A stretch of DNA of 64,000 bases from Neoroseomonas eburnea. GTDB taxonomy: Bacteria; Pseudomonadota; Alphaproteobacteria; Acetobacterales; Acetobacteraceae. The notes under the pieces are model-generated. The model was not told the origin of the DNA and searched no databases. It saw nothing but the letters and a program-made list of their open reading frames with translations. This document shows, piece by piece, positions 13,256 through 62,935 of the stretch. Position 1 is the stretch's first letter; each line of letters starts with the position of its first letter. The stretch lies in the NCBI RefSeq assembly GCF_018129005.1, contig NZ_JAAEDL010000013.1, forward strand, positions 62,001 to 126,000, written 5' to 3'. Both the position numbers and the translations under genes were made by a program.

Positions 13256-13331
13256 TCCACTTCGTCGCCCGGCGCGGAGGGAGGCGCTAGCAGTCCCGCC
13301 GCATCCGAATGAGCGACAGGAGCGACGGAGC

Positions 13332-13955: not shown

Positions 13956-13991
13956 TGCTTCATCCGTGACCGGAACCGACGGAGCCTGACC

Positions 13992-14783
13992 TTGACCCCC
14001 GTGCTTGCCGCCTTTCCGCAACGTCCCCTCACGCTGAAGCCCGGGCGCGGCGCGCTCGGCGGCTGGATGACCACGCTTGCCGGCCTGCTGCTCTTCGGCG
14101 CCTTCCTCGCGATGCTGGCGATCGAGATCGGCCCGGCGCTGCGCACCGACCTGCAGATCCGCGACCAGGCGGTGCCGGCGCCCCAGGTGCGCGTGACCGA
14201 TGGGCGCTGCCGGTCGCGCCTCTTTCTCTTCCAGAGCTGCGAGGTGACGCTGAGCTGGCGCGGCAAGGACGGCACCGGCACGCGCAAGGTGTCCTACATG
14301 TTCGTCGAGCCGCACATGGGCTCGTGGTCCGTGCAGGCGATGATGGACCCGTCGCGGCCGGACCTCGTCAGCACCGATCTCGGGCTGGATCGGCTGTGGA
14401 ACCGGATCGCGACGCTGGTGGGCGGCGCGATCTTCGCGCTCGTGCTCATCTTCGGCCTCTTTCTCGTGGCGCGGAAGGCGCAGGCGAAGAAGCGGGAGGT
14501 GAAGGCGCTGTCCGGCCGCGCCCTGAGGGCGGTGCCGGTGCGTTTCGCCGGCTGGGGGGATGGTCCGAGCTGGCGCGTGCAGGACGAGCACGGCGCGACC
14601 TTCGAATGGCCGGTGCGCAAATCCGACAAGCCCTTCGTGCTGGATGAGGCGCGCGGCCTGGTGCTGGCGCTGCGCGATCCCGCGGGCGGGCCGGCCTTTC
14701 CGCTGGATGAGAAGCTGCGCTTCGTGCAACTGACGGCCGAGGAGCGTGCGCGCATCGAGGCGGCGCGCTGGCGGCCCGGTTGA
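13992..14783 (+). CDS. Unknown two-span membrane protein
   Basis: The 263-residue protein has two hydrophobic segments, about residues 25-45 (MTTLAGLLLFGAFLAMLAI) and 140-160 (LVGGAIFALVLIFGLFLVA). Between them is an exposed domain with a Cys pair (DGRCRSRLFLFQSCEV). The C-terminal cytoplasmic domain of about 100 residues is charged. TTG 13992 is the start, with GGAGCC upstream. The topology (extracytoplasmic beta-rich loop, cytoplasmic tail) suggests an envelope protein, but no family was recognised. It ends in a double hairpin shared with convergent uvrA. Confidence 0.68.
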   Translation: MTPVLAAFPQRPLTLKPGRGALGGWMTTLAGLLLFGAFLAMLAIEIGPALRTDLQIRDQAVPAPQVRVTDGRCRSRLFLFQSCEVTLSWRGKDGTGTRKVSYMFVEPHMGSWSVQAMMDPSRPDLVSTDLGLDRLWNRIATLVGGAIFALVLIFGLFLVARKAQAKKREVKALSGRALRAVPVRFAGWGDGPSWRVQDEHGATFEWPVRKSDKPFVLDEARGLVLALRDPAGGPAFPLDEKLRFVQLTAEERARIEAARWRPG

Positions 14784-44643: not shown

Positions 44644-47592
<2,949 letters not shown>

Positions 47593-47726
47593 TGTGACCT
47601 GGATCGCAGCACGGCCACGCGAAAAGTGCAACGCGCTCCACGCCCGGGTTGCGCAGGTATTGCCGCGCCAAGCCGCAGGCTGCACGATCGGAACGAATGC
47701 TTCCCATCGCGTGAAGGTTCAATGAC
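47593..47726. promoter_or_regulatory. Divergent promoter region of the radical SAM cassette
   Basis: These 134 bases separate the cyclase-ATPase and radical SAM start codons and must hold both promoters. They include a moderately AT-rich stretch near the radical SAM side with an AAGG ribosome site at about 47714. No perfect operator dyad was recognised. Confidence 0.4.
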
Positions 47727-48731
47727 TTGAATCCAAGGCTGACCGCTCCCCCCAAGGTGGCGATCTCGATCACCGAGGCCTGCCCGCTGTCGTGCAAGCA
47801 TTGCTACGGCGATTGCGGGCGGGAGGCGCGGCCGGCGGAGCTGTCGATCGGGGAATGGCGCGAAGCGATCGCGCGGCTCGCCGCCGATGGCGTGATCAGC
47901 CTGCACATCGAGGGCGGGGAGCCCCTGCTCAAGCCGGGCTTCCTCGACCTGCTCGCGGAGGCCTCGCGCTCCATGTTCACCATGGTGCGCACGCACGGCA
48001 CCCTGATCGACGCCGCGATGGCGCGGGCGCTGCGCGATGCCGGGGTGGGGCGGGTCCTGGTGGACGTGATGGGCGCCACCGGGCCGACGCATGAGTGGTT
48101 CACCGGGGCCCCGGGCAGCTTCGATGCCTCGGTGGCGGCGGTGCGGCACCTGGTCGCGTGCGGCGTGGCGACCGACATGCTCCTTATCCTCACCCGCCAG
48201 AACGCGCCCGAGGTGCAGGACCTGCTCGACCTCGCCGCCGGCCTCGGGGCCGAGCGGGTGGGCGTGCTGCGGCTCTATCCGCTGGGACGGGCGAAGCGCA
48301 TCTGGCAGGAGATCGCGCTGCCGCTCGCCGATCAGATGCGGACCCTCGGGGCGCTGCGCGTGCCGGCGGGGCTGACGCTGATGCAGTCCTGGCACCCGAA
48401 CGACCACAATTGCTGCTGGCAGTCGGCGGCGGTGATCGCGAACGGCGAGATCGTCGGCTGCCCCTACCTCCGCGAATATGTCAGCCACGGCAACCTGCGC
48501 AGCACGACCCTGCTCGAAGCCTGGCGGACCGCCCCGCTGTGGCAGGTGCTGCGGGCCGGCGCGGTCGAGCGGAGCTGCCCGGATTGCAGCGCCGCCGAGG
48601 GCAGCCATGGCGGCTGCCGCGCCACCGCCTATGCCTGGCATGGTCGCTGGACGGCGCCGGATCCCTTCGACGTGACCCTCAATGACGGTGTCGATCTCAG
48701 TGTTCTGCCCGACCGACTGCTTCCGGCTTGA
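47727..48731 (+). CDS. Radical SAM/SPASM peptide- or protein-modifying enzyme
   Basis: The 334-residue enzyme has the radical SAM cluster motif ACPLSCKHCYGDC (Cys19, Cys23, Cys26) and the SAM-binding HIEGGEPLLKPGF. A C-terminal SPASM region has NCCWQSAAVIANGEIVGCPY and a closing CPDC-x7-GGC group that would bind auxiliary iron-sulfur clusters. SPASM enzymes install thioether, C-C or oxidative modifications in peptides and proteins. Its last 50 bases overlap a PqqD-like gene, strong support for a peptide-modifying role. TTG 47727 is the start, with AAGG about ten bases upstream. The substrate is not identified. Confidence 0.9.
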   Translation: MNPRLTAPPKVAISITEACPLSCKHCYGDCGREARPAELSIGEWREAIARLAADGVISLHIEGGEPLLKPGFLDLLAEASRSMFTMVRTHGTLIDAAMARALRDAGVGRVLVDVMGATGPTHEWFTGAPGSFDASVAAVRHLVACGVATDMLLILTRQNAPEVQDLLDLAAGLGAERVGVLRLYPLGRAKRIWQEIALPLADQMRTLGALRVPAGLTLMQSWHPNDHNCCWQSAAVIANGEIVGCPYLREYVSHGNLRSTTLLEAWRTAPLWQVLRAGAVERSCPDCSAAEGSHGGCRATAYAWHGRWTAPDPFDVTLNDGVDLSVLPDRLLPA

Positions 48732-49014
48732 ACCGGGTGTGCGGCTGCGGCCGGTGCCGGAGCTCGGGCATTGCCTGGCCTATACGCCGGCACGGCCGGC
48801 GCTGCACCGGCTGAACCCTTCGGCCTGGCTGCTGGCGGAGCTGGCGGACGGGCGCCCGCTGGCGGCGATCGCCGCGGATTTTGGGGAGGCGATGGCCGAG
48901 ATCGGCGGCGAGGCGAAGCTGTCGGATGTCGAGGCTGCTCTCGTCGGCCTGATCGAGCTCGGAATCGTCGGGAAACTTGCGACACCTGCAACGGAAGGAA
49001 GCCAGAATGCATGA
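48682..49014 (+). CDS. PqqD-like peptide-recognition (RRE) protein
   Basis: A 110-residue protein with the PqqD pattern: RLEPGVRLRPVPELGHCLAYTP, LHRLNPSAWLLAELADGRPLAAIAADF and a late VEAALVGLIELGIVGKL helix. These small winged-helix domains bind the leader of a ribosomal peptide and present it to the radical SAM enzyme. It overlaps the radical SAM gene by 50 bases, and its own end overlaps the next gene by eight. The start may be internal (GTG 48688 or later), since the first ten residues are not typical. Confidence 0.82.
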   Translation: MTVSISVFCPTDCFRLEPGVRLRPVPELGHCLAYTPARPALHRLNPSAWLLAELADGRPLAAIAADFGEAMAEIGGEAKLSDVEAALVGLIELGIVGKLATPATEGSQNA

Positions 49015-49705
49015 TGAGAGCGGGAGGGCGCAGGCGCGCCTGTTGCTTCGCCAGTTCGGCCTGTCCGCCGGCGCCGCGCCGCGCGCGGCGCGCACCACGC
49101 CTGTCGTGCGGACCCCGGGCACCATCCCGCACGACAAGAACGCGCCGATGGCCGCCTGGGTCGATCGCGACGCCCTGAAGAACGAGCTCGGCCTCTACCA
49201 TGAATGGCGCTTCCGGCTGCCGCACCAGGAAGGCCGGAACGAGCAGGCGAGCACGCTCCTCGCCTGGCTGCGCGAGCCGGCCGGAACGCCGGAGGAGCTC
49301 AAGCTTCCGCCGGGCACGAGCTACGTCACGAAGGAAGGGCCGCACGCCGGCCGCGTGACGAACGAGGCGCTGATGGCGCATTTCTTCCAGACGAAGGCGA
49401 CCACCGTGCCCTGCTTCTACCTGGGCACCTTCATCGCCGCCTTCGTCGCGGACATGATCGAGTTCCGCAGCGTCTTCGTCTTCGCCACCGGCAATGAGCC
49501 CGCCACCTGCATGGACAGCTGGGCCGCCGGCCTTGCCACGCTCGGGCCGAACAACCCGTATGTCCCGGTGCTGCGGAGCTTCTGGCGGATGATCGCCGGC
49601 GCCGCGCCGGAGCAGTCCTGGCTGATGCTGGGGCAGTCCCTGGCGAGCATCGACTTCACCAAGGACCCGCTGAAGGCGCCGGCGAACCCGATCGCCGCGC
49701 TCTGA
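49007..49705 (+). CDS. Unknown 232-residue protein of the radical SAM cassette
   Basis: I do not recognise a family. ATG 49007 follows ACGGAAGGAAGCC, a strong ribosome site, and lies inside the last codons of the PqqD-like gene, so it is translated with the modifying enzyme. The N-terminal 50 residues are Arg/Ala/Pro-rich and leader-like. The middle is charged. Two cysteines, in VPCFYLGTFIAAF and EPATCMDSW, flank a hydrophobic segment (about residues 134-165). It may be the modified substrate or a dedicated partner; it is far longer than ordinary RiPP precursors. The stop codon coincides with the start of a dispersed repeat. Confidence 0.7.
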   Translation: MHDESGRAQARLLLRQFGLSAGAAPRAARTTPVVRTPGTIPHDKNAPMAAWVDRDALKNELGLYHEWRFRLPHQEGRNEQASTLLAWLREPAGTPEELKLPPGTSYVTKEGPHAGRVTNEALMAHFFQTKATTVPCFYLGTFIAAFVADMIEFRSVFVFATGNEPATCMDSWAAGLATLGPNNPYVPVLRSFWRMIAGAAPEQSWLMLGQSLASIDFTKDPLKAPANPIAAL

Positions 49706-49816
49706 GGCGGCTTTCGTTCGCCTTGGCTCACGGCAATCGCCCTCGCCCCGTGCTCTTGCGAGCACCTTCGCCCGATCAGGTGATTCCACCTGATCGGGAT
49801 CTGCTTCAGCCGCCGG
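49704..49816 (+). repeat. Dispersed intergenic repeat, copy 3 with perfect 12-pair hairpin (module B)
   Basis: This copy fills the gap between the unknown 232-residue gene and the protease gene. It contains CCCGATCAGGTG (49771-49782), loop ATTC, and CACCTGATCGGG (49787-49798), a perfect 12-pair stem. It begins at the upstream stop codon and ends next to the ribosome site of the protease gene, so it may influence read-through within the cassette. Confidence 0.8.
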
Positions 49817-49820
49817 CGGG

Positions 49821-52800
49821 ATGAACCCGAAGCCGCGGCGCGGGGAGGCCGTCGGCCCCTGGGGGCGGGCGGATCTGCGTACCCTCCGGGCGACGCTGCT
49901 CGCCATCCTCCTGGCGGCGGAGGCGACGGAGAGAGGCCCGGGGATCGAGGCGGTCCGTTCCGCCGGGCCTCGCAGCGAATGCGACCTGCTGCTCGACTTC
50001 GACGGGCATCCTGCGGATCTTGCCGGGTTGCGGTCGGCGGATGGCGCGCGGCCGGTGCAGTTCGTCGCGCAGGTCGGCAGCCTCTTCGCCGTCCGCATCG
50101 ACGCCGAGTACCTCCGCGGCCAGCTCGACCTGCTCGATCGGTGGAACGACGACGGGCCGCCGCCGCCGGAGATGGCCGATGGCGACAGCCTGGCGGGGCT
50201 GGTGGCTGCGGGCGCGATCCGGCGCGCCTCGCTCGGCCGCGCGGCCCGTGTCGCCTCCGGCCAGGCCGGGCAGCCCACCGGCGGCCGCCGGGCCGTGCGC
50301 GACGTGGCGCGCGCCGAGGTCACGGCCGAGGGCGCCGGCGTCACCATCGGCATCATCGACACGGTCTTCGACTACGCGCACGTCGCCATGCTGCCACCCG
50401 GCCATACGCTCGAGGCACCGCCGCCGCCGAACGAGGCCCTGCGCGTCGTCAGCCTCTTCGATCCCTATGCGAGGCGCGCGGCGGGCGGCTTCGGCGTGCG
50501 CCACACGCGCTCCGAACTGGCGCAGGACATCGCCGATTGCCTGGCGGCGGGCGATGACCGGCCGCTGCGGCTCGCGCAGCGGGATGCCGCGGCCGGCGGC
50601 GACACCGAGGCGACCCGGAGGCAGCTCTTCGCCAATCACGGCACCTTCTGCGCCGGCATCGCGGCCGGCAGCGGCAACGCCTCGATTGGCGGGCGCTACC
50701 GGGGCATCGCCCCGGCGGCGCGCATCGCCTGCGCGATCGCCGGCATCCAGGACAATGCGGCGCTCGCCGACAGCCTCGATGTCGTCACCGCCGTCGTCCG
50801 CATGGTCGAGGAGTCCGACACGCCGCTCGCCCTGCTGCTCAACAACGGCGACTGCCTCGGCGCGCATGACGGCACGCTGCTGGGCGAGCTGATGCTCGAC
50901 GAACTGCTGCTGCACCCGGGCCGCGCCATCGTGCTGCCGGCGGGCAACCAGAATGTCGGCAACACCGAGACGGTAGGCGCCGGCAAGACGCGCATCGTGC
51001 CGCATCTCGCCATTCCGGGCAGCATGACGGAACCGAGGCTCGAACGGCTCGCCTTCAGCTACACGACGCGGGCGAGCAAGGCCGACACCATCGAGATCTG
51101 GTTCCGGGCGCAGGATACGCCGACCGCGACGGTGCGCGTCGAACCGGCGCAGCCGCCGATCGAGCCTCTCCGCGGCGACGAGGGCAGGCCGATCCGGGTG
51201 CTCTCCCTCATCGACGGCGATGCGCGGGCGACGGTGATCGCCGAACTCGGCCGTGCGATGGAGCGCGGCCTCTGGCGGCTGCACATCCTGCTGCTGCCGA
51301 TACGTGGTGCCATGCCCATCGACACCCTGCGCTTCGAGATTGCCGGCGTGGTCGGCGAGCTGCACGCCTGGTGCGACTGGAACAACGCGACGCAGCGGGA
51401 CTGGAGCGAGCCGCCCGCCGGCCGCGAGGACGACGTCACCACGCTGACGACGCCGGCCACGGCGCATCGCGTCATCGTCGTCGGCGAGTGCGAGGACGAT
51501 GCGACCGGCTTCCACGCCGCCGAGGCGAGCGGCCGCGGACCGACCCGGGACGGGCGCTTCAAGCCGGATCTCGTCGCGATCGGCGCCTCGGTGGCGGTGC
51601 CGGTGCCGCAGCGTTCGCCGGAGGCGCACCGCAATCTCGCCGCCGCCTTCGCCGCCAGGCCCGAGCTGCTGGAGCGGCACGCCTACGGCGCCACCATCGC
51701 CGGGACGAGCTTCACTGCCCCGCAGGTGGTAGGCCTTGCGGCCCTGCTGTTCGAGAAGTGGCCGGACGCGACCTGGGCCGATATCCGCCAGGCCATCGTG
51801 GAAGGCGCTGTGAGGCCCGAGCACTGGATCGCCGGCGATGCGGGGGAGGGCGATGCCGCGCCGACGCCCCTCGGCGCGGCGGCGTCACGCGCCTTGGAAG
51901 CCCTGCCACCCGAACCCGGCATTCGTGCGATCGGCTGGGACCGCGCGCTTGGCTATGGCCGCATGGATGTCGCGCGCACGCTGTCTCCGCCGCCGCCACG
52001 CTTCGATGTCTGGCTGCGCAAGTCGGCGGGCGATGACGGGCGTGAGCCTTGTGTCGGCGCCGTGCTGTGGGATGCGCCGGGCATCACGCCCATCGGCCCG
52101 CACCGCCTGCGCGTGGAGACACTGCAGCGAGGCCGCGAGCCCATCGCCGGCCCGGCCCGGCTGTACCTGTTCCGCGCGCCCTTCGGCGCCGTCCATCCGC
52201 TGCCGCGTCTCGAGGGCGCCCGCTCGGCACGCGGCGCGTGGGAGCCGCTGCTGACCAGGGAGGACGGCTCGCCGGCCTTCGTGAGCGTCATGCCGGGCGA
52301 GGCGGTCGAGGTCTCCACCCGTGCCGACATCGATCTCTCGCGCAGCGCCGGGGTGATCGCGGCGGTGCTCGATCACGATGACGATCGCTACGAACCCGCG
52401 GCGACGCTCGGCATGCGCAACAATGTCGCCGTCCTCGCGACCCATGAGGCGAAGCTGAACCTCGATGGCACCATCGATGCCCCGGTCTTCTCCATCATCG
52501 GCAGCGAGGACGTCGATAGCCTGCTGGTATGGGGCGAGAACATCAGCGGGAAGCTGCGCCTCGGCGGGCTGCCGATCACCGCGCTGCCATGGCGCGCCAT
52601 GCGAATGTTCCTGGAGTGCAGCCGCCTTCGCTCCTGGAAGCGTCCCTATTTCGGGCAGCAGGACGACGCCGCGGCGGATCCCGCAAACCAGCTTGCACGC
52701 GAATCCGACATGCATGATCGCGGCAACCTGGCCGACGCCATCGCAGGACTCACTGGGGTCGTCGGCGCCGACGGCATGGAGTTGCGTCGAAGCGAGGGGG

Positions 52801-53015
52801 ACGCATACGCCCGCCTCGGCTTTGCCGCTGCGGGGAACAGGCTGTGGATTCCGCGCCTGCGGCTGGCGCAGGACCAGCAACTGCCGTTTGACGTGACCTA
52901 TGCGGACGCGAGGCTGCGGAGCGACCAGCCGGTAGGATGGGTGCACGCTGTCCATTTCTCCGGTGGACGTCGTGTCGGCGGCGGCAGTCTTCGCATCACG
53001 CGGACGTCGGACTGA
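49821..53015 (+). CDS. Large subtilisin-like (S8) serine protease
   Basis: The 1064-residue protein carries the full S8 set: Asp180 in GIIDTVFDYAH, His273 in NHGTFCAGIAAG, oxyanion Asn376 in PAGNQN and Ser630 in AGTSFTAPQ. About 250 residues separate Asn376 and Ser630, a large insertion with a beta-rich segment. A C-terminal region of about 400 residues is of unknown fold. No convincing signal peptide is seen, so it may act in the cytoplasm, for example to remove a leader. It follows the radical SAM cassette in the same direction, comparable in logic to the radical SAM plus subtilisin pair of quinohemoprotein amine dehydrogenase maturation. Confidence 0.87.
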   Translation: MNPKPRRGEAVGPWGRADLRTLRATLLAILLAAEATERGPGIEAVRSAGPRSECDLLLDFDGHPADLAGLRSADGARPVQFVAQVGSLFAVRIDAEYLRGQLDLLDRWNDDGPPPPEMADGDSLAGLVAAGAIRRASLGRAARVASGQAGQPTGGRRAVRDVARAEVTAEGAGVTIGIIDTVFDYAHVAMLPPGHTLEAPPPPNEALRVVSLFDPYARRAAGGFGVRHTRSELAQDIADCLAAGDDRPLRLAQRDAAAGGDTEATRRQLFANHGTFCAGIAAGSGNASIGGRYRGIAPAARIACAIAGIQDNAALADSLDVVTAVVRMVEESDTPLALLLNNGDCLGAHDGTLLGELMLDELLLHPGRAIVLPAGNQNVGNTETVGAGKTRIVPHLAIPGSMTEPRLERLAFSYTTRASKADTIEIWFRAQDTPTATVRVEPAQPPIEPLRGDEGRPIRVLSLIDGDARATVIAELGRAMERGLWRLHILLLPIRGAMPIDTLRFEIAGVVGELHAWCDWNNATQRDWSEPPAGREDDVTTLTTPATAHRVIVVGECEDDATGFHAAEASGRGPTRDGRFKPDLVAIGASVAVPVPQRSPEAHRNLAAAFAARPELLERHAYGATIAGTSFTAPQVVGLAALLFEKWPDATWADIRQAIVEGAVRPEHWIAGDAGEGDAAPTPLGAAASRALEALPPEPGIRAIGWDRALGYGRMDVARTLSPPPPRFDVWLRKSAGDDGREPCVGAVLWDAPGITPIGPHRLRVETLQRGREPIAGPARLYLFRAPFGAVHPLPRLEGARSARGAWEPLLTREDGSPAFVSVMPGEAVEVSTRADIDLSRSAGVIAAVLDHDDDRYEPAATLGMRNNVAVLATHEAKLNLDGTIDAPVFSIIGSEDVDSLLVWGENISGKLRLGGLPITALPWRAMRMFLECSRLRSWKRPYFGQQDDAAADPANQLARESDMHDRGNLADAIAGLTGVVGADGMELRRSEGDAYARLGFAAAGNRLWIPRLRLAQDQQLPFDVTYADARLRSDQPVGWVHAVHFSGGRRVGGGSLRITRTSD

Positions 53016-53748: not shown

Positions 53749-54465
53749 GTGAACCACATGCACGACACGAGCGCTCTTGTTCTGCGACGCCATGTCATCC
53801 TGGCGGTGGATCATGATGATGTCAGGACCTTCGCCGGCGATCTCGCGCGGCGGGGGTTCACCGTCACCGTCACGCCGTCCGCCGAGGCGCTCATGCGCGC
53901 CGTCGCGGATGGATCGCCGGACGCGGTGCTGCTGGCGTCCGGCAGCACCTCCGGACTGCCTGCGGCCGAGGCGGTACGCCGCCTGCGCGATCTGTCCGGC
54001 GTTCCCTGCGTCGTCATCGCGCCTCCGAGCGAAGGCATCGAGGAGCGGATCGACGCGCTCGAAGCCGGCGCAGACGAAGTGCTGCACGTCGGAATTCCGC
54101 CCATCGAGGCGGTGGCGCGCATCCGCGCGGTGTTGCGCCGGGTCGGTCCGCCCGCGGGGGCGCTGGCGCCGTGGCGGCTGGTCCGCGCTGGCCGCCGCCT
54201 CCTGCCGCCTGTCGGCGACGAGGTGCGCCTGACCGGCGCCGAGTTCGAATTCCTCGCTCTGCTCGCCGCGGCCGAGGGTGCGCCGGTGGATCGCGAAACT
54301 CTCTCCATCGAGGTCTTCCGACGTCCTTGGCGCACAGAGGATCGCGCCGTGGACAGCCTGGTGCGCCGACTGCGACGGAAGCTTCCGCTCGATGCGATCA
54401 ATTCCATCCGCAATGTCGGCTATGCGCTCGCCGTGCCGGTCGAGTTCACGGAAGCGCGTGTGTAA
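53749..54465 (+). CDS. OmpR-like response regulator with degenerate receiver
   Basis: The 238-residue protein has a receiver-like domain (residues 12-125) and a C-terminal winged helix (FEFLALLAAAEGAPVDRETLSIEVFRRPW, VDSLVRRLRRKL, IRNVGYAL). The receiver lacks the phospho-acceptor Asp (VLLASG instead of VLLD), has Pro in place of the conserved Thr/Ser (VIAPPSE), and lacks the conserved Lys (EVLHVG). It therefore cannot be phosphorylated in the usual way. No kinase is adjacent. It ends 100 bases before the RTX gene and probably controls the secretion locus. GTG 53749 or ATG 53758 may be the start. Confidence 0.85.
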   Translation: MNHMHDTSALVLRRHVILAVDHDDVRTFAGDLARRGFTVTVTPSAEALMRAVADGSPDAVLLASGSTSGLPAAEAVRRLRDLSGVPCVVIAPPSEGIEERIDALEAGADEVLHVGIPPIEAVARIRAVLRRVGPPAGALAPWRLVRAGRRLLPPVGDEVRLTGAEFEFLALLAAAEGAPVDRETLSIEVFRRPWRTEDRAVDSLVRRLRRKLPLDAINSIRNVGYALAVPVEFTEARV

Positions 54466-54565
54466 ACTTGTGCACTGCACCCAAATCCAACTTCTGAACC
54501 GATAGAGCACAACCTATACGTGTGGCGTACCGGTCGAAACGACCAAACCCCTCGATAGGGAGCTC

Positions 54566-55399
54566 ATGATGGCCGATTTCGCGACCCTTCCCGGCGGCCT
54601 GCTGTTCGGAACGGACAGAGCCGACCTGGTTCATGCAGATGCCGACATTCCAGGCAGCTTCGACAACCTGATCATGACCTTCGGCGGCTCGGACACGATC
54701 CACGCCGGGCAGGGTGACGACATCGTCTTCGCCGGCGGAAGCGGCGGCGGTGACGACGACCGCGGTCGCGGACGTGGCCGCGACCGCGACGACGATGACC
54801 ATGGCCGTGGCCGTGGCCGCGACGACGACCACGGCCATGGCGGCTCGCGTGGTGGCGATGATCATCACGGAGGGCCGGCGCTGCCGGCGCGTGGCGGTGA
54901 CAGCGACTGGGTGTTCGGCGACGAGGGCAACGACATCCTCTTCGGCGGCAAGGGCGACGACGTGATGAGCGGCGGCGCCGACAACGACATCCTGTTCGGC
55001 GACGAGGGCAATGACGTGCTCTCCGGCGATGCCGGCGCCGACCTCATCTACGGCGGCAAGGGCAAGGACCTGCTCGTCGGCGGCGCTGGGGCGGACACGC
55101 TGCTCGGCGGCGCGGGCGCCGACACGCTGGCCGGCCAGGGCGGCGCCGACACCTTCTACTTCGAGAGCGGCTTCGGCCGCGACGTGGTGCTCGACTTCCG
55201 CCCCGGCGACGACGTGATCGCGATCCAGGCGAACATCAACGGCACCGGCATCAACAGTGCCGACGACCTCGCGGACCGCATCTCGAGCAGCGGCACCGGC
55301 GCGGTCATCGACCTCGGCGACGGCGACCAGATCAAGCTGGTCGGCGTGTCCAGCGAGGACCTGCTGAACAACCTGTCCAGCTACGTCAAGATCGTCTGA
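54566..55399 (+). CDS. Small RTX (calcium-binding) type I secretion substrate
   Basis: The 277-residue acidic protein has about nine RTX nonapeptides (GGxGxDxLx) between residues 113 and 195, each half of a calcium site. A C-terminal region with DVVLDFRPGDDVIAIQ and a hydrophobic end (LLNNLSSYVKIV) is typical of type I secretion signals. An isolated RTX-like unit at residues 40-57 precedes an unusual insert (about 58-102) of Asp, His and Arg-Gly runs. ATG 54566 follows ATAGGGAGCTC. It lies upstream of ABC and HlyD-like genes on the same strand, so it is the likely cargo. No enzymatic domain is present. Confidence 0.88.
   Translation: MMADFATLPGGLLFGTDRADLVHADADIPGSFDNLIMTFGGSDTIHAGQGDDIVFAGGSGGGDDDRGRGRGRDRDDDDHGRGRGRDDDHGHGGSRGGDDHHGGPALPARGGDSDWVFGDEGNDILFGGKGDDVMSGGADNDILFGDEGNDVLSGDAGADLIYGGKGKDLLVGGAGADTLLGGAGADTLAGQGGADTFYFESGFGRDVVLDFRPGDDVIAIQANINGTGINSADDLADRISSSGTGAVIDLGDGDQIKLVGVSSEDLLNNLSSYVKIV
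54738..54862 (+). repeat. Low-complexity CGTGGC/GACGAC coding tract in the RTX gene
   Basis: Imperfect hexamer runs (CGTGGCCG, CGCGACGACG) encode the Arg-Gly and Asp-Asp-His blocks of the RTX protein insert. Such a tract is prone to slippage, and its length may differ between strains. Confidence 0.6.
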
Positions 55400-55488
55400 G
55401 GCCGCCCCTGAACGGCGAACTCGCCACGCGAAGCCTGCCGGCGGAGGCCACGCGCCCTCGCCGGCAGCATCTCTCGGCCGCACCGCGG

Positions 55489-57585
55489 ATGCTGGTCTCG
55501 GCAGCAGGCCTGCTGGTGCTGGACCTGATGCTGCCGGGCGGCGTGCCCTCCGGCAGCGCCCGCCTGGCGCTGGGCGGCAGGGTCCTGCCGCCGCCCGGCG
55601 CGACGATGGTGCTGGACGCGGCGGAGGCGCCGCGCCTCGTTCATCTCGCCCGCCTTCCGGCCGGGGCGCAGTGCGGCGCCGCGGCGGAGCTCGGCTTCGA
55701 TGCCGGTGAGGCGATCGCCTTCACGATGCCCGAGCCGCTGCCCGCGGCAGACTTTGCCTTCGGATTCGCGCCTCGGGAACGCCAGCGCCTGCTGCGCTTC
55801 CTCGTCGGCACCGGCGCATCGGCGATGCGCGCGGCGCCCGATCCGGATCTCGCCGCGCTCTGCCTCGCCCTCGCGGTGCCGTCCCGGGCCGCGACCCTGC
55901 TCGCGCGGCCTGAGGCCGGCCTGTTCTTCTGGCATGTCCCGACGGCACCGAAGGGAGCCTGGCGGCTGATCTCGCCTGCCGGCATCCGGGCCCTGCGCCC
56001 GCCGGTCGGCGACGTGCTCGTGACGGAGGGCGCGCCGCCGCCGGGCGCGGTGCTGCTGCCGCCCGCGCCGCTGTCCGCCCTGCGTTTCGCCGCCGCCGGC
56101 ACCCCGGCGCCCCTGCGCGCCGCGCTGCGCGAGGCTCTGGCCGGCCGCGGAACTGCCGTCTCGCTGCCGGCGGCACTCGCAGCGCGGGCAGCCGAGCACC
56201 CGCGGTTGCGCGCATTGCTGCAACAGGAGGCGCTGCTGCGCCCCGCCCGCACGACGCGCATCGAGGATGCGGCGGGGCCACTCGGCGCGGCGCTCGAACT
56301 CGCCCTGTCCGACCATGGCGGTGGTGTCTTCCTCTGCGGCTGGCTGCGCGATCCGCTCGGCCTCGTCGAGCGCATGTCGCTGCTCGCTCCCGGTCTCGAC
56401 ATCGCCGTCCCGGCGGAGCGGCTGCACCGTGTCGCGCGGCCCGACCTCGCCGCGACCTTCGCGCGCGCGCCGCTCGGCGGGGCAGGGGATCGGCCGGGTT
56501 TCCTCGCTCATCTGGCGGGCATCGATCCGGTCGGCATGGCGCAGTGGCGCCTCGCGCTGCAACTGCGCGGCGGCGGCGCGGTCGAGGTGACGGCGCCGCC
56601 GGGACTCATGCCGCCGGCGGTCGCGCGGGACCTGGTGCTGCGCGCGGCGCATCCCTCCGCGGTGGAACCCGCGCTGCTCGACGCCTGCATCGCCCCGGCC
56701 GCGTCGCTGCTGCACGCAGCCGCTCTGCGCGAGGCGACCGGGTCGGTCGAGGAACTTGCCTACGGCACCGCCCCCGCGCGCCCGCGCGTGAGCCTCATCA
56801 TCCCGCTCTACCGCAACCTGCGCTTCCTGCGCTTCCAGGTCGCCGCCTTCGCGCGCGACCCGCAGACGCACGGCACCGATCTGGTCTACGTGCTCGACAG
56901 CCCGGAGCAGCGGCACGAGGTCGATCACCTGCTGCGCGGCATGGCGACGATGCTCGGCCTGCCCATGCGCCTGCTGGTGATGCCGCGCAACGGCGGCTAC
57001 GCGGCAGCCTGCAATGCGGGCGCCGCGGCGGCGCGCGCCCCCGCGCTGCTGTTCCTGAATTCCGACGTCCTGCCGGCGGGCGAGGGCTGGCTCGGCGCGA
57101 TGCTCGGCCGCCTCGGGCGTGAGCGGCGGCTCGCCGCGGTCGGGCCGCGGCTGCTCTTCGACGACGGCTCGATCCAGCATGCCGGGCTGCTGTTCCGGCG
57201 CGGCCAGGACGAGGTCTGGCTGAACGACCACTACTGCAAGGGCTATCCGCGCCACCACGCGGAAGCCGCGCGCCCGCGGCGCGTGCCGGCGGTGACCGGC
57301 GCGGCGATGCTCGCCCGCCGTGCCGCCTTCGAGCGCGCCGGCGGATTCTGCACCGACTACATCGTCGGCGACTTCGAGGATTCCGATCTCTGCCTGCGCT
57401 TCCGTGCCGACGGCGGGGAGATCGCCTACGAGCCGGCGGCCGAGCTGTACCACTTCGAACGCCAGTCCATCGCGCTGCACGACGGGCATGCGCGCACCCT
57501 CGCAGGCGCGGTGAACCGGCGCCTGCATCACCGGCGTTGGGATGGCGCCATCGCCGCGCTGATGGCGCGCTTCACGGAGGCGTGA
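55489..57585 (+). CDS. Family 2 glycosyltransferase with long N-terminal domain
   Basis: The 698-residue protein has a GT2 (GT-A fold) domain from about residue 432: RVSLIIPLYRN, PRNGGYAAACNAG, the DxD-like LFLNSDVLPAG, AVTGAAMLARR and the catalytic-base region GDFEDSDLCLRF. The first 430 residues are Ala/Leu/Pro-rich and resemble domains seen in other polysaccharide-locus GT2 proteins, but were not identified. The frame is open back to the RTX stop, and a non-ATG start near 55408 is possible. It would add sugar to a glycan or to a secreted protein. Confidence 0.85.
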   Translation: MLVSAAGLLVLDLMLPGGVPSGSARLALGGRVLPPPGATMVLDAAEAPRLVHLARLPAGAQCGAAAELGFDAGEAIAFTMPEPLPAADFAFGFAPRERQRLLRFLVGTGASAMRAAPDPDLAALCLALAVPSRAATLLARPEAGLFFWHVPTAPKGAWRLISPAGIRALRPPVGDVLVTEGAPPPGAVLLPPAPLSALRFAAAGTPAPLRAALREALAGRGTAVSLPAALAARAAEHPRLRALLQQEALLRPARTTRIEDAAGPLGAALELALSDHGGGVFLCGWLRDPLGLVERMSLLAPGLDIAVPAERLHRVARPDLAATFARAPLGGAGDRPGFLAHLAGIDPVGMAQWRLALQLRGGGAVEVTAPPGLMPPAVARDLVLRAAHPSAVEPALLDACIAPAASLLHAAALREATGSVEELAYGTAPARPRVSLIIPLYRNLRFLRFQVAAFARDPQTHGTDLVYVLDSPEQRHEVDHLLRGMATMLGLPMRLLVMPRNGGYAAACNAGAAAARAPALLFLNSDVLPAGEGWLGAMLGRLGRERRLAAVGPRLLFDDGSIQHAGLLFRRGQDEVWLNDHYCKGYPRHHAEAARPRRVPAVTGAAMLARRAAFERAGGFCTDYIVGDFEDSDLCLRFRADGGEIAYEPAAELYHFERQSIALHDGHARTLAGAVNRRLHHRRWDGAIAALMARFTEA

Positions 57586-57590
57586 GGGCA

Positions 57591-58880
57591 ATGCGCGTGC
57601 TCTTCCTCACGCACAACCATCCGCGCCTGCAGCCGGGCGGCACGGAGGCCTTCGCCCACGGCCTGTTCCGCGCGCTGCGCGACATGATCGGCGTGCAGGG
57701 TCTCTTCCTCGCCGGCACCACGGAGCTGCTGCGCGAAAGGCGGCCCGGCACGCTGCTGCAGGCGGCGGGGGCGGCGTCGGACGAGATGCTCGTCTCGCTC
57801 GACCATTTCGACCGCTTCTACCTGTCGCAGGGCGATGTGTACGGCCTCGCTTCCCTTGCGCCGATGATCGAGCGGCTGGCGCCGGATGTCGTGCACCTGC
57901 ACCACCCGCTGCTCTGGGGCATGGAAGGCATCGACATGCTGCGCCGCGCGGCTCCGCGCGCGGCGATGGTGGCGACGCTGCACGACTATTTCTGCCTGTG
58001 CCCGCGGGAGGGCCAGTTGCTGACGGCGGATGGCCGGCTCTGCCATGGCCCGTCGCCGGATTCGTGCCGGCGTTGCCTGCCCGATCGGCACGGCAGCGAC
58101 TTCACCCTGCGCGACCTCGGCATCCGCAGTTCCTTCGCCGCCTTCGACGCGCTGCTGGCGCCGAGCGAGTTCCTGCGCGGACGCTTCGCCGCCGCCGGCT
58201 GGGATGCCGCGCGCATCCGCGTCATGCGCAATGCCGTCGCGGCGGCCCAGCCGGCGCCGCCGCGCGCGTCACCCGATGGCCGGCGCGACCGCTTCGCCGT
58301 CTTCGGCAATGTCAACCGCTTCAAGGGCACGCTCGCCGCGCTCGTTGCCTCGGCGCGGCTGTCGCGGGAAGGCGTCGCGCATCGCCTCGACATCCATGGT
58401 GGCACCACCTGGACGTCCGAGGAGTTCCGCGCGGAGTTCGCCGCCGCGCTGGACGCCGCGCCCGAAGCCGCCCATCGCGGCGCCTACGCGCCCGAGGAGA
58501 TGGCCACGCGCATGGCCGCCGCGGACTGGGTCGTGGTGCCCTCGATCTGGTGGGAGAACGCGCCCCTCGTCGTGCTGGAGGCCTTCCGCCACGGGCGCCC
58601 GGTGATCTGTGGCGATGTCGGCGGCATGGCCGAATCGGTGCGGGATGGCGTCGATGGACTGCACGCGCCCGTCGGCGATGCGGCGGGCCTCGCCGGCGTG
58701 CTGCGGCACGCGGCCGACACCCCCGGCCTGTGGGAACGCCTGCGCGCCGGCATCCGCCCGCCGCCCGACTTCGCGGCCGCCGCCGCGGCGCATCTCGAGC
58801 TCTACCGCGACCTCGTCTCGTCCCGAACCAGGAGGACGCCACATGCCATCCGATCTCGCATCCCCGCCGCCCCGTGCTGA
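57591..58880 (+). CDS. Family 4 (GT-B) glycosyltransferase
   Basis: The 429-residue protein has a GT-B fold: MRVLFLTHNHPRLQPGGTEAFAHGLF at the N-terminus, VVHLHHPLLWG, and the donor-sugar site IWWENAPLVVLEAFRHGRPVI with the EX7E pair. A Cys-rich segment (YFCLCPREG through CRRCLPDRHG) is common in this subgroup. GAGGG lies just upstream of ATG 57591. Its last 38 bases overlap the following membrane protein gene. With the preceding GT2 it forms a glycosylation pair inside the secretion locus. Confidence 0.89.
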   Translation: MRVLFLTHNHPRLQPGGTEAFAHGLFRALRDMIGVQGLFLAGTTELLRERRPGTLLQAAGAASDEMLVSLDHFDRFYLSQGDVYGLASLAPMIERLAPDVVHLHHPLLWGMEGIDMLRRAAPRAAMVATLHDYFCLCPREGQLLTADGRLCHGPSPDSCRRCLPDRHGSDFTLRDLGIRSSFAAFDALLAPSEFLRGRFAAAGWDAARIRVMRNAVAAAQPAPPRASPDGRRDRFAVFGNVNRFKGTLAALVASARLSREGVAHRLDIHGGTTWTSEEFRAEFAAALDAAPEAAHRGAYAPEEMATRMAAADWVVVPSIWWENAPLVVLEAFRHGRPVICGDVGGMAESVRDGVDGLHAPVGDAAGLAGVLRHAADTPGLWERLRAGIRPPPDFAAAAAAHLELYRDLVSSRTRRTPHAIRSRIPAAPC

Positions 58881-59547
58881 GGCCGCACCCGCGCGTGGCG
58901 CCGAGCTGCGTGGGCTCGTCGACAATGCGGCGGCCGACAAGCTCTATGGCTGGGCGTGGAACGCCGCGGCGCCGCAGGAACGCGTGGCGATCGAGCTGCG
59001 CCTCGGCAGCGCGACCGTGTTCCGCACCGTCGCGGATTTCGCCCGCGCGGACCTCGCCAAGGCCGGCATCGGCGACGGTTCCCACGCCTTCGAGATCCCG
59101 CTCGAGCCGGAATGGGCGCAGCGGCGGTCGGATCTCGCCGTCGTCGCGCGCGCGGCCGACGGCACCGAGGTGCCTATGCCCATGCGCATCCCCCGCCCGC
59201 CCGCCGAGGAGCGGACCGAGGCGGCACCGCAACGGCTGCTGGAGGCCGTCGCCGCCGGCCAGCGGCGCCTGCATGAGGAACTCCGCGCCATCGCCGCCCG
59301 TGTCCCCGAGGCCGGGGAGCGTGCGGCGCTGGAGGCGCTGGAACGCGGGCAGCGCGACCTGACTGAACGGCTGGCGACGCTGACGCTCTGGCTGACACGT
59401 CTCGACGAGCGGCTGGCGGCGATCCCGGTCGCGCCGCCGCGTCCGCCGCGCCGCCGCGCCGGCGGCTGGACCTTCGCGCTGGTGGTGCTGCTCGCGGCGA
59501 TCGGCGTCGCCGCGCTGGTCGCCTCGCGTGACCTCGGGGTGCACTGA
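58843..59547 (+). CDS. C-terminally anchored coiled-coil protein of the secretion locus
   Basis: The 234-residue protein has an N-terminal domain (about residues 18-115) with LRGLVDNAAADKLYGWAWNAAAPQERVAIELRLG, a beta-rich module also met in glycosyltransferase loci. A helical coiled-coil segment (about 122-185) and one C-terminal membrane helix (about 207-227) follow. AGGAGG precedes ATG 58843, confirming the start, which overlaps the GT gene. It may tether the glycosylation machinery to the transporter. The function is not known. Confidence 0.75.
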   Translation: MPSDLASPPPRAEAAPARGAELRGLVDNAAADKLYGWAWNAAAPQERVAIELRLGSATVFRTVADFARADLAKAGIGDGSHAFEIPLEPEWAQRRSDLAVVARAADGTEVPMPMRIPRPPAEERTEAAPQRLLEAVAAGQRRLHEELRAIAARVPEAGERAALEALERGQRDLTERLATLTLWLTRLDERLAAIPVAPPRPPRRRAGGWTFALVVLLAAIGVAALVASRDLGVH

Positions 59548-59549
59548 GC

Positions 59550-61271
59550 ATGGCCTCCGCGGCCATGGCCGGGCTGTCCGCCGAGCTGGCGCGCACCGCG
59601 CGCGCCTCGGCGCTGCTTGGCCTGGCCGGGGCCTTCGGGCCCTTCGCGCTGGTGATGCTGACGGTGCAGTTCTACTCGCTGGTGGTGCCGACCGGCAGCC
59701 TGTCCACCGCGGTTGGCCTCGGCGCCGGCTTCGCATTGGTGGCGGTGGCGGTGGTGGCGCTGACGCTGATCCGCGAGCGGTTGCTGCTGGCGAGCGCCGA
59801 GCGCCTGGTGCGCCGCCTGACCGCCCGCGCATTGCCGGCGGCGACGGCGCGCGCCGCGGTGCCCGCCGCGGCGGCCGACCAGGCGTTGCGCGACATCGAC
59901 GCGGTGCGGCGCGGCGTCGTCGGGCCGCTTTCGGCCATCGCGCTGGATGCCGTGCTGGTGCCGGCGGTGCTGATCCTGCTCGCCATCTTCCACTGGGCCT
60001 TCGCGCTCTTCGCCGTCGCCGCCGCCGTGGTGGCGCTGCTGCTCGGCCTTTCGGCGGAGCGCGCGACGCGCGAGGCGCTGGTCGAGGCGAACGACGCGTC
60101 GGCGCGCGGAGCGCGCCTGGTCGCCGACGCGGCGCGCGCGGCCGAGGCGGTGGAGGCGATGGGCATGCTGCCCGCGCTGGTCGGCCGCTGGGCCCGGATG
60201 CTGGCGCGCGGCGCCGGCGGGCTGCGGCGCGCGCAGGGCACGGCGCGCATGGCGCAGGCGGCGACGGCCACGCTGTTCGGCGTGGCGCAGGGCGGCGCGG
60301 TCGCGGTCGGCGTGCTGGTGATCATCGAGAGCGGCAGTTCCGTGGGCTACGGCATCCTCGCCGGCCTGCTGCTGACGGCGCGGGTGATGGAACCCTTCTC
60401 CCGCATCGGCAGCCAGTTCGAGGACGCGGCCGCCGCGCGCGCCGCCTGGCGCCGGCTGGACCGCCTCCTGGCCGCGGATGAGGCGGCACCGGCGCCGGCC
60501 ACCCGCGCCTTCCCCTGCCCGGAAGGGCGGCTGGTGGTGGAGCACATCACGCTCGTCTTTCCCGGCGCGGCGCGACCGCTCCTGCGCGACGTCAACCTGG
60601 TGGTGGGGCCGGGCGACGTGGTCGGTCTCGCCGGCCCGCCGGGTTGCGGCAAGTCGACCCTGCTGCGCGTGCTGCTCGGCCTCCAGGGCAGCAATGCGGG
60701 CGAGGTCTTCCTCGACGGCCACGCCACGGCGCAGTGGGACCGCACGGACCTCGCGCGGCACATCGGCTACCTGCCGCAGGAGCCGGTGCTCGCCGAGGGC
60801 ACGGTGGCGGAAGCGATCGCGCGGCTCGAGGACGCGCCGGACATGGAGGCGGTGATGGAAGCCGCCCGCCTGGCCGGGGCGCTGCGCATGGTCGCCGGGC
60901 TGCCGCAGGGCTTTTCGACGCGGATCGGCGGGCGCGCCGTGCTCTCCATGGGGCAGCGGCAGCGCATCGCGCTGGCGCGTGCGGTCTATGGCACCCCCCG
61001 CCTCGTCCTGCTGGATGAACCCGCGGCCTTTCTTGACGCGGAGGGGGAGGTTGCGGTCGCGGCGATGATCGCGGCCCTCGCCGCGGCAGGGAAGGCCGTG
61101 GTCTTCACCTCCCACCGCGAGGGGCTGCTGCGCGCCGCGGGCCGGGTGATGACGCTGCGCGACGGTGCGCTCGCGGAGGTCGGCGAGCGTCGCCGCCTGC
61201 TCGCCGCACCTGCCGCGCGGCGCGCATTGCCGCAGCCGCCGCGCCGCATCGCGGCGCCGGAGGCGACGTGA
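59550..61271 (+). CDS. Type I secretion ABC half-transporter, first copy
   Basis: The 573-residue half-transporter has about five or six membrane helices and an ATPase domain with Walker A GPPGCGKST (about residues 362-370), Q-loop YLPQEP, signature LSMGQRQR (normally LSGGQ) and Walker B LVLLDEPAAFLD. The His of the switch region is kept (FTSHRE). No C39 peptidase domain is present. It starts two bases after the anchored protein and overlaps the second ABC gene by four bases. The relaxed signature suggests the pair works as a heterodimer with one weakened ATPase site. Confidence 0.88.
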   Translation: MASAAMAGLSAELARTARASALLGLAGAFGPFALVMLTVQFYSLVVPTGSLSTAVGLGAGFALVAVAVVALTLIRERLLLASAERLVRRLTARALPAATARAAVPAAAADQALRDIDAVRRGVVGPLSAIALDAVLVPAVLILLAIFHWAFALFAVAAAVVALLLGLSAERATREALVEANDASARGARLVADAARAAEAVEAMGMLPALVGRWARMLARGAGGLRRAQGTARMAQAATATLFGVAQGGAVAVGVLVIIESGSSVGYGILAGLLLTARVMEPFSRIGSQFEDAAAARAAWRRLDRLLAADEAAPAPATRAFPCPEGRLVVEHITLVFPGAARPLLRDVNLVVGPGDVVGLAGPPGCGKSTLLRVLLGLQGSNAGEVFLDGHATAQWDRTDLARHIGYLPQEPVLAEGTVAEAIARLEDAPDMEAVMEAARLAGALRMVAGLPQGFSTRIGGRAVLSMGQRQRIALARAVYGTPRLVLLDEPAAFLDAEGEVAVAAMIAALAAAGKAVVFTSHREGLLRAAGRVMTLRDGALAEVGERRRLLAAPAARRALPQPPRRIAAPEAT

Positions 61272-62935
61272 GCGGCGTGCTCTCCCTCCCGGCGCCGGCG
61301 ACCGCCCCGCGCGGCGCGACGGCCGGCACGGTGCTGCCGGTCCTGCTGGTCTGCATCCTGCTGTCCATGGCGGTGCAGGCGACCATGCTGACGACGCCGC
61401 TGCTCACCATGCATGTCTTCGACGGCGTGCTGGAAAGCCGCAGCCTCGACACGCTCTGGGTGCTGGCCCTGGCCTTCCTGGCAGTGCTGATGCTCGGCGG
61501 CGCGCTGCGCCACATGCGGGCGGCGCTGCTGGCGGCGATGGCCGAGCGTGTCGGCCGGCGGCTCGAACTGCGCGCGCTGGCCGCGACGGTGCGCGTGAGC
61601 CTCGCGGGCGATCGCGTGGCAGCGGCGCGGGCGCTGCAGGATGTCGCGGCGCTGCGGCGGCTGCTCGGCGGAACGGTTCCGGCGGATGTGCTGGATCTGC
61701 TCTCCATCCCGCTGGCGCTCGGCTTCCTGTGGATGCTGCATCCGCTGTTCTTCGCCGTGACCTTCGCGGCTGCGCTGGCGCAGGCGGTGATCGGCGTGCT
61801 GGCGGACCGCACGGCGCGCGGCACGCTCGCCGCCGCCATGCTCGCCGAAGGGCAGGGGCGGCGGGAACTGATCGGGCGGCTGGGGCAGCGCGACCTGGTG
61901 CTCGGCCTCGGCCTGCTGCCGGCGGTGCTGGCCCGCTTCGCGCCGGTGCAGGCGCGCGCCATCGCCGGGCGGGGGGATGCCGAACGGCAGGCCCGCGCGC
62001 TGGCGGGCCTGCTCCAGCTTGCCGGCTTCGCGCAGCAGATCGCGGTCGTCGGCACCGGCGTCTGGCTGCTGCTCGACCACCGCATCTCGCCCGGTTCGAT
62101 GATCGCCGCGACGTCGATGGTGAACCTCGCGACGCAGCCGGTGATGCACCTGGTCGGGCATTGGCGCGACTGGAGCGAGGGCATGGCCGCGGCCCGCCGC
62201 CTTTCCGGCGTCGTTCGCCGCGGCGCGCCGCCGGCACCGGTGCCGCCGGAAGTCTCCGCGCCGTCCGGATTGCTCATCGAGGACCTGACGCTGCGCGTGC
62301 CGGGTGCTGCACGGTCACTGCTGGAGGGGATGTCGCTGTCGCTCCCGCCGGGGAACGCGGTCGTCATCGCGGGGCCGAACGGCGCGGGCAAGACCACGCT
62401 GCTGCGCGCCATCCTGGGACTGGCCGAGCCCGAGGGCGGGCGGGTGCTGCTCGACGGGTGGGACACGCTGCGCGCGCCGCGCGGGGAGATCGGGCCGCGG
62501 CTCGGCTACCTGCCGCAGGATGCGCAGCTTCTCGAAGGCAGCGTGATGGAGAATATCGGCCGCTTCGGCACCGATGGCGCCGCCGGCGCCGTCGCGGCCG
62601 CGCGGATGGTCGGCGCGCATGACGCGATCGGGCGGCTGCCGCGCGGCTACGAGAACGCTGCCGGTCCGGATGCCGGTCTGTCGGGCGGCCAGGCGCGGCT
62701 GGTGGCCCTCGCCCGCGCCTTCCACGGCGCGCCGCGGCTGATCGTGCTGGACGAACCCGAGGCCGGGCTCGACGCGCCCGCGCGCGCCGGGCTGCGCAAC
62801 GCCGTCGCCGCCGCGCGCGACGGAGGCGCGGTGGTGCTGCTCGTCTCCCACGCCCCGTCGGCCTGGCAGGAGGTGGCGGACGGCGTGCTGACGCTCAAGG
62901 GCGACGGGTCCTGGTCATTGGAGATGGATGCATGA
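61268..62935 (+). CDS. Type I secretion ABC half-transporter, second copy
   Basis: The 555-residue protein is built like the first half-transporter but is clearly different in sequence. It has membrane helices in residues about 15-290, Walker A GPNGAGKTT (about residues 368-376), Q-loop YLPQDAQLLEGSV, signature LSGGQARL, Walker B LIVLDEPEAGLD and switch SHAPS. It resembles the PrtD/LapB type of exporter. ATGA overlaps join it to the first half-transporter and to the HlyD-like gene, so all three are co-translated. Together they would export the RTX protein. Confidence 0.89.
   Translation: MSGVLSLPAPATAPRGATAGTVLPVLLVCILLSMAVQATMLTTPLLTMHVFDGVLESRSLDTLWVLALAFLAVLMLGGALRHMRAALLAAMAERVGRRLELRALAATVRVSLAGDRVAAARALQDVAALRRLLGGTVPADVLDLLSIPLALGFLWMLHPLFFAVTFAAALAQAVIGVLADRTARGTLAAAMLAEGQGRRELIGRLGQRDLVLGLGLLPAVLARFAPVQARAIAGRGDAERQARALAGLLQLAGFAQQIAVVGTGVWLLLDHRISPGSMIAATSMVNLATQPVMHLVGHWRDWSEGMAAARRLSGVVRRGAPPAPVPPEVSAPSGLLIEDLTLRVPGAARSLLEGMSLSLPPGNAVVIAGPNGAGKTTLLRAILGLAEPEGGRVLLDGWDTLRAPRGEIGPRLGYLPQDAQLLEGSVMENIGRFGTDGAAGAVAAARMVGAHDAIGRLPRGYENAAGPDAGLSGGQARLVALARAFHGAPRLIVLDEPEAGLDAPARAGLRNAVAAARDGGAVVLLVSHAPSAWQEVADGVLTLKGDGSWSLEMDA

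Follow-up and report, generated by a model that had tools for sequence, protein, structure and literature searches.

Known systems and a locus in Neoroseomonas eburnea

Radical S-adenosylmethionine (SAM) enzymes with a SPASM domain, working with RRE proteins (recognition elements of ribosomally synthesised and post-translationally modified peptides, RiPPs), have yielded new cofactors such as pyrroloquinoline quinone (PQQ) and mycofactocin as well as peptide classes. PqqA is a short precursor peptide, and mycofactocin has the small RRE protein MftB and the precursor MftA. In the accessible part of PMC5715301, PqqE works on a peptide with PqqD and the auxiliary cluster II (AuxII) of PqqE has a non-standard ligand, Asp319. 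In the maturation of quinohemoprotein amine dehydrogenase (QHNDH), as the available portion of PMC7876137 describes it, the radical SAM enzyme QhpD and the cytoplasmic subtilisin-like leader protease QhpE act on a protein subunit. Radical SAM enzymes and proteases are common as RRE neighbours (PMC12710340, in the portion available), and some ATP-grasp peptide loci are mentioned as having SPASM enzymes together with adenylate cyclases (PMC8939145, likewise in part). The locus described here lies in a 64,000-nucleotide stretch of Neoroseomonas eburnea DNA, referred to as the window (assembly GCF_018129005.1, contig NZ_JAAEDL010000013.1, positions 62,001 to 126,000 of the forward strand), and brings together a radical SAM/SPASM enzyme, a PqqD-like RRE protein, a partner protein, an S8 protease and a divergent nucleotide cyclase. 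These genes form a recurrent cassette, not a chance cluster. By a modest measure we lean towards reading it as a cyclic-nucleotide-regulated cytoplasmic protein-maturation cassette, in which the RRE protein and the radical SAM enzyme would act on the partner through a leader that the S8 protease would trim. No description of this gene set was recognised from titles and abstract openings in a literature search with many journals outside its coverage.

The four plus-strand open reading frames (ORFs) of the cassette are all present in the window. The original prediction, made from the letters alone, had described four consecutive plus-strand genes of which the first three overlap, and the coordinates bear this out: the partner start overlaps the RRE end, and a gap of 115 bp precedes the S8 gene. 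The features, with positions counted from the first letter of the window, are as follows.

44644–47592, minus strand: class III adenylate/guanylate cyclase with zinc ribbon, AAA ATPase and tetratricopeptide repeat (TPR) region, 982 residues, divergent from the operon
47593–47608, no strand: CRP-consensus-like site TGTGA-N6-TCACA with 1 mismatch, in the cyclase/operon intergenic region
47727–48731, plus strand: radical SAM/SPASM enzyme, 334 residues, TTG start
48700–49014, plus strand: discrete PqqD-like RRE protein, start at 48682 (ATG) or 48700 (GTG)
49007–49705, plus strand: partner protein, 232 residues, proposed substrate
49031–49141, plus strand: proposed leader, partner residues 9–45, with the [VI]R[ST] motif
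49190–49627, plus strand: predicted NIPSNAP/ferredoxin-like domain, partner residues 62–207, order β-α-β-β-α-α-β, insert at about 91–129
49418–49432, plus strand: Y-x-G-T-[FYV] motif, partner residues 138–142, candidate modification or structural site
49821–53015, plus strand: S8 serine protease, 1064 residues, catalytic D180, H273, N376 and S630

The TTG start of the radical SAM gene is backed by a GTG at the same place in the homologue of Neoroseomonas marina, and for the RRE gene homologues favour the GTG at 48700 over the ATG at 48682.

A recurrent cassette

Twenty-one loci were compared, the window included (individual loci carry our own numbers, such as L045); they come from Acetobacteraceae and rarely from other Alphaproteobacteria. 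Besides the window they were drawn from N. marina and 12 further genomes of the order, one of 318 genomes of the class, two of 299 genomes of the phylum, one plasmid of Microvirga ossetica and, through the partner profile, three of 200 genomes of the family. L054 was dropped from the counts because a contig end cuts inside its radical SAM gene, leaving 20 loci. The nearest cassette-bearing relative, N. marina JC162, belongs to the same genus group as the window genome, a group of the Acetobacteraceae. Orthologues of the radical SAM enzyme occur in 14 of 299 genomes of the order, the window's own among them (49–100% identity, E at most 2.1e-91), and the set is clean, the next match in these genomes reaching only E 6.4e-34.

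The radical SAM, RRE and partner genes are consecutive at 20 of the 21 loci, the remaining one being the cut L054, and this trio, not the pair of cyclase and S8, is the most constant unit; co-occurrence in related genomes, on which the original prediction had staked its case, was thus found. A cyclase gene lies near the radical SAM gene at 19 of the 20 loci (L051 stops at a contig edge), divergently at 18 and, at L045, on the opposite strand some 2 kb downstream. The S8 gene is near the cassette at 15 of the 20, before the radical SAM gene at 10 and after the partner at 5; it was not found in the fetched stretch at L045, L057, L061 and L062, and L051 is cut. The predicted gene set at 47727–53015 was therefore right in its four real genes, while it left out the divergent cyclase, which is part of the cassette unit, and included a protease that is kept at 15 of 20 loci. 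Gene order varies across loci while the gene set stays, and each of the three genomes found through the partner profile alone carries all five genes. That the genes are chance neighbours without common function is scarcely credible: nothing beyond a single genome stood behind the first observation, yet the trio is kept at every uncut locus and the set persists through changes of order.

Evolutionary distances among the other proteins follow those of the radical SAM enzyme, with correlations of r=0.87 for the partner (17 loci), 0.89 for S8 (10), 0.94 for the cyclase (12) and 0.84 for the RRE protein (13), and none of 2000 permutations matched the observed co-divergence for any of the four.

Three loci show features of their own. 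L045, with no S8 in the fetched stretch, has a 288-residue gene after the partner (oriented 11165–12031), and the part scanned gave no Pfam match at E≤0.01. The S8 gene of L044 (11776–14972) occupies two overlapping frames, perhaps because of a frameshift or an assembly error. At L061 and L062, both from f171 genomes, a second gene with a cyclase-like region lies near the cassette (oriented, about 12454–14568; tblastn with the window cyclase domain).

The radical SAM enzyme and the recognition protein

The window enzyme matches Radical_SAM (PF04055, E 9.6e-19) and SPASM (PF13186, E 8.5e-6), both above the cut-off. Nine cysteines are invariant in 17 of 17 homologues, among them the CX3CX2C motif (C19, C23, C26) and C230, C245, C284, C287 and C297, whereas the AuxII site is reduced, with D (13 of 17) or C (4 of 17) at position 315 and S or T at 293. 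The closest solved structure is PqqE (6c8v), aligned over nearly the full length at E 4.8e-28. NCBIfam models score the enzyme at 131.7 bits for AhbD, 124.7 for MftC, 123.6 for NirJ2, 123.0 for GeoRSP and 102.2 for PqqE, and none of 25 among the 63 matching models reaches its cut-off, so that the enzyme falls below the lines for PQQ, mycofactocin and heme models alike, in agreement with the earlier statement that no named system is matched.

The window RRE protein scores E 0.0018 against the Pfam PqqD model, below the cut-off (19 versus 23.4 bits); PF05402 is matched by 15 of 17 RRE homologues at E≤1, at best with 3.9e-6, and the window protein is the only match to the PqqD model at E≤0.01 in its genome. 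Against solved structures its profile found two designed proteins only, at E 0.08–0.09. The modifying enzyme, leader-recognition protein and protease (Peptidase_S8, below) of the original prediction are accordingly all in place, the recognition protein by way of its homologues.

The order of these scores bears on an alternative, namely that the radical SAM enzyme acts on a small molecule, for instance a tetrapyrrole or a free cofactor, while the partner is a working pathway protein (a NIPSNAP/monooxygenase-like barrel or a scaffold) whose tail the RRE protein merely docks. AhbD, a heme b synthase, scores highest and NirJ2 stands about level with MftC, so a non-peptide substrate is possible; the two heme-biosynthesis models have cut-offs of 500 bits each, far above the values reached. 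An adjoining discrete RRE protein and a protease suit peptide or protein substrates better, and we hold this alternative to be rather unlikely.

The partner protein as candidate substrate

The partner is a protein-sized family outside all libraries searched, with no match in Pfam or NCBIfam at E≤1, nor in PADLOC or PHROGs at E≤0.01; the caveat attached to the original prediction, that it might be a known enzyme, was not realised in these libraries. Used as a single query it matched two of the 299 genomes of the order, that of the window and that of N. marina, and found nothing in viral contigs or plasmids and N. marina alone in genome contigs. The idea of a two-genome orphan was rejected, the radical SAM search having revealed divergence, not absence: the N. 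marina partner is 74% identical to that of the window, and the other partners are 15–26% identical to it. Because identity falls so low, leave-close-kin-out profiles were used, each built without the held-out protein and its kin more than 40% identical and then searched against the six-frame peptides of the locus in question. In 17 of 17 loci the top hit was the true partner (E 2.7e-37 to 2.9e-5), and no other peptide went below E 0.026. Of 16 cassette genomes, 15 yield a single partner-profile match at E≤0.01, and the exception is the cut genome. Five class-level matches of a two-row profile (17–19 bits, E 0.002–0.006) were set aside as chance, as was a single match at E 0.17 that a 13-row profile gave, beside the partner itself, in the window's own genome.

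Across the family the partner has 169–235 residues and follows the RRE gene at 20 of 20 loci. The N-terminal motif [VI]R[ST] is present in 17 of 17 partners ([VI]R in 20 of 20), and in Y-x-G-T-[FYV] the Y, G and T are kept in 20 of 20 and [FYV] in 17 of 17. In five close pairs the ratio of nonsynonymous to synonymous substitution (dN/dS) is 0.25–0.41 for the partner versus 0.09–0.27 for the radical SAM enzyme, values that point to a partner evolving faster than the enzyme yet constrained. In the predicted structure residues 24–54 have a confidence score (pLDDT) below 50. The fold is weakly NIPSNAP-like by model comparison, the top rows being NIPSNAP/antibiotic-monooxygenase barrel proteins; the rows include monooxygenases and the heme-binding IsdG/IsdI, a predicted resemblance that, together with the large size and conserved core of the partner, would suit a small-molecule pathway. 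Barrels beyond those rows, whether NIPSNAP, monooxygenase or of another kind, may resemble it as well. None of 13 family members matched a Pfam NIPSNAP or dimeric ferredoxin-like barrel sequence model at E≤5, the partner profile matched no sequence of a solved structure at E≤10, and a viral structure library gave no match at E≤0.001.

Rival precursors were sought among ORFs of 15–80 codons, over the 900 bp that follow the partner (20 loci) and the 600 bp that precede the radical SAM gene, where it could be placed. Seven cross-group pairs appeared at E≤0.01. Five upstream pairs were read as shadows of S8, because all come from loci with S8 before the radical SAM gene and lie on the other strand, and two downstream pairs were traced to a CRP-type gene; in this limited search around the cassette no other conserved small ORF was found. 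The partner is thus proposed as the substrate on account of its position, its one match per genome, its leader-like N-terminus, its co-divergence and the lack of a rival small ORF. This role, which we infer from those features together, is the weakest link of the model.

The S8 protease

The protease matches Peptidase_S8 (PF00082, E 8.2e-24), and the triad and oxyanion Asn residues D180, H273, N376 and S630 are conserved in the 10 S8 proteins aligned, out of 15 found. No secretion signal was recognised by eye. The S8 domain was also tried as a guide to plasmid copies of the cassette and abandoned: six records led to three S8 genes elsewhere, with no radical SAM or RRE gene among the listed annotations. 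On a Rhizobium leguminosarum plasmid (L010, 2259–9179) the S8 gene is two listed genes from a LodA/GoxA-family cysteine tryptophylquinone (CTQ)-dependent oxidase gene, which itself adjoins a gene for a flavin adenine dinucleotide (FAD)-dependent oxidoreductase. On a Sinorhizobium medicae plasmid (L009, 6984–11815) S8 is followed by genes for a DUF6065 protein and a methyltransferase on the other strand, and the region adjoins type IV secretion system genes.

A radical SAM enzyme beside a subtilisin-like protease recalls QHNDH maturation, which the original prediction named as the closest logic. The logic stands, both routes pairing such enzymes on a leader-bearing protein (PMC7876137, available portion); the analogy goes no further, with the radical SAM enzyme nearest to PqqE among solved structures. 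In the genome of the window the QhpD model TIGR03906 (quino_hemo_SAM, cut-off 453 bits) finds nothing at E≤1e-10; the same search gave matches in 8 of 14 control genomes, above cut-off in none. The QhpC model PF08992 (QH-AmDH_gamma) likewise finds nothing there, though its control was positive in 0 of 14 genomes. The accessible part of PMC7876137 names no RRE gene for the qhp operon. That the locus is a QHNDH maturation operon or a fragment of one is very improbable.

The cyclase and CRP-like control

The window cyclase matches Guanylate_cyc (E 8.6e-15) and AAA_16 (E 3.2e-15) in Pfam, and both metal-site motifs are matched. Nearly its full length also matches PHROG 25255, a family of unknown function, at E 4.3e-100, so that the cyclase has relatives among viral proteins. 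Flanking genes were compared at 13 of the 20 loci, and the families shared across divergence groups number only three, a CRP-type cyclic-nucleotide (cNMP)-binding regulator and two more. Such scarcity counts against a small-molecule pathway, yet the two families besides the CRP-type one may be pathway genes. The CRP-type gene lies close to the partner or S8 and is in the fetched stretch at 8 of 20 loci (L043, L046, L048, L050, L052, L058, L081 and L083); all six CRP-type proteins scanned have cNMP-binding and Crp helix-turn-helix (HTH) domains.

Because this gene recurs near the cassette, the region between cyclase and operon was examined for CRP sites, of which the consensus is TGTGA-N6-TCACA. 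A first run over 15 gaps gave 9 sites with at most 2 mismatches versus 0.90 in mononucleotide shuffles. The final test used 300 dinucleotide shuffles and covered 19 regions, namely 18 gaps plus the sequence upstream of the radical SAM gene of L045. With at most 1 mismatch there were 6 sites versus 0.11 in shuffles (maximum 2) and 0.07 expected from the rest of the loci; they lie in the window, L003, L045, L046, L049 and L053, those of L003 and L049 being perfect, and that of the window abuts the cyclase start codon. With at most 2 mismatches there were 11 versus 1.38 expected. The shorter palindrome GTGA-N6-TCAC occurred 5 times without mismatch in the same regions versus 0.05, and 9 times with at most 1 mismatch versus 1.62 (shuffle maximum 7), while the FNR-type palindrome TTGAT-N4-ATCAA gave 3 sites with at most 2 mismatches versus 0.36 expected, overlapping the CRP-like sites. 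The enrichment is read as suggesting joint or feedback control by a cyclic nucleotide and CRP.

Cyclase and protease together also invite another explanation, in which the real substrate lies elsewhere or is another cassette protein and the locus is a regulated conflict or defence module, with the cyclase signalling and S8 as effector. PADLOC gives single-protein matches to Pycsar cyclases (cyclase, 4.1e-20), to a subtilase (6.8e-18) and IetS (1.4e-8) for S8, and to viperin (radical SAM enzyme, 2.8e-10), and the distribution is sporadic, with 14 of 299 order genomes and one copy on the Microvirga plasmid. These matches are at domain level, and no Pycsar effector model is among those of the five proteins scanned, though the cyclase domain matches PycC models. 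S8 is absent from 4 of the 19 loci with an uncut stretch, and the constant unit is not the signalling pair. A defence role is improbable on this balance.

Neighbouring genes on the 3' side of the cassette (window 53749–63999) encode an OmpR-type response regulator, an RTX calcium-binding repeat protein (54566–55399) and a glycosyltransferase. Genes at 59550–63999 resemble, by eye, ABC exporters and an HlyD-type protein, and may serve the RTX protein as a type I secretion locus.

A proposed mechanism

In the protein-maturation reading, to which we slightly incline, the divergent cyclase would sense a cue and make a cyclic nucleotide, and a CRP-type regulator, whose gene is close to the cassette in some genomes and presumably more distant in the rest, would bind the intergenic site and control both the cyclase and the operon. 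The discrete RRE protein would bind the disordered N-terminal leader of the partner at its [VI]R[ST] region and present it to the radical SAM/SPASM enzyme, which may then modify the partner by radical chemistry, perhaps on or close to the Y-x-G-T-[FYV] motif of the NIPSNAP-like domain. Where present, S8 would remove the leader.

Several points weigh against this scheme. Every binding and chemical step, the modification and cleavage of the partner and the direction of regulation are what we infer, and the co-divergence could also be expected from plain linked inheritance. A partner of 169–235 residues with a predicted folded domain is unlike the usual short precursors and could be an enzyme or a scaffold, and its structure model is low in confidence. 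The missing S8 genes mean either that S8 is not needed everywhere or that another protease serves. On the regulatory side, 13 of the 19 regions have no CRP-like site with at most 1 mismatch, and the six sites amount to about four independent cases, because the window and L003, and likewise L049 and L053, are close kin. Among the eight loci with a CRP-type gene L046 alone has such a site. No CRP-type gene lies near the best sites, that of the window included, so that these would have to be served by a CRP from another part of the genome.

A bolder form of the maturation reading, doubtful but deserving real weight, takes the whole folded NIPSNAP-like protein as the substrate, with a cofactor or cross-link formed at the invariant Tyr of Y-x-G-T-[FYV], maturation by S8 and the cassette's own cyclic-nucleotide switch through CRP. 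If true, protein-derived cofactors or modified proteins would gain a new class, under self-contained second-messenger control. With a single match per cassette genome and its two conserved motifs, the partner is a target directly testable by mass spectrometry, and the cyclase with its CRP-like sites gives a handle on the timing of the system's switching on.

Comparison with known systems

The cassette shares with PqqE-PqqD-PqqA a radical SAM/SPASM enzyme and a discrete PqqD-like protein. Its partner of 169–235 residues stands against the short PqqA, S8 and a cyclase are added, and the enzyme lies far below the PqqE model (TIGR02109, 102.2 bits versus a cut-off of 381.35). A non-standard AuxII ligand is common to both, but the altered position differs; by a profile alignment to the PqqE structure, the cassette enzyme has S or T at the place of Asp319 and D or C (315) at that of Cys341, as those residues are given in the available part of PMC5715301. 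Like mycofactocin MftC-MftB-MftA, the cassette combines a radical SAM enzyme with a small RRE protein, and the MftC model aligns with residues 5–314; the score stays below its line (TIGR03962, 124.7 bits versus 265), no short precursor was seen with the cassette, and the neighbours differ. QhpD-QhpE-QhpC offers a radical SAM enzyme, a subtilisin-like protease and a leader-bearing protein in the cytoplasm (PMC7876137, accessible portion) and would by analogy be the nearest precedent for the order of events, whereas in the cassette the RRE protein is separate and the partner unrelated in the searches made.

RRE-dependent RiPP clusters likewise unite a leader-recognition protein, a modifying enzyme, a protease and a candidate precursor, but the cassette has a large partner with a predicted folded domain, a linked cyclase and a CRP-like control region. 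The ATP-grasp peptide loci are the nearest literature mention, yet in a different setting (PMC8939145, in the part available), and NIPSNAP/antibiotic-monooxygenase barrels resemble the predicted β-α-β-β-α-β core of the partner. In our reading the cassette belongs to known RRE-dependent radical SAM maturation and is new in its gene set; should the folded partner turn out to be what is modified, there is a real prospect that it forms a class of its own.

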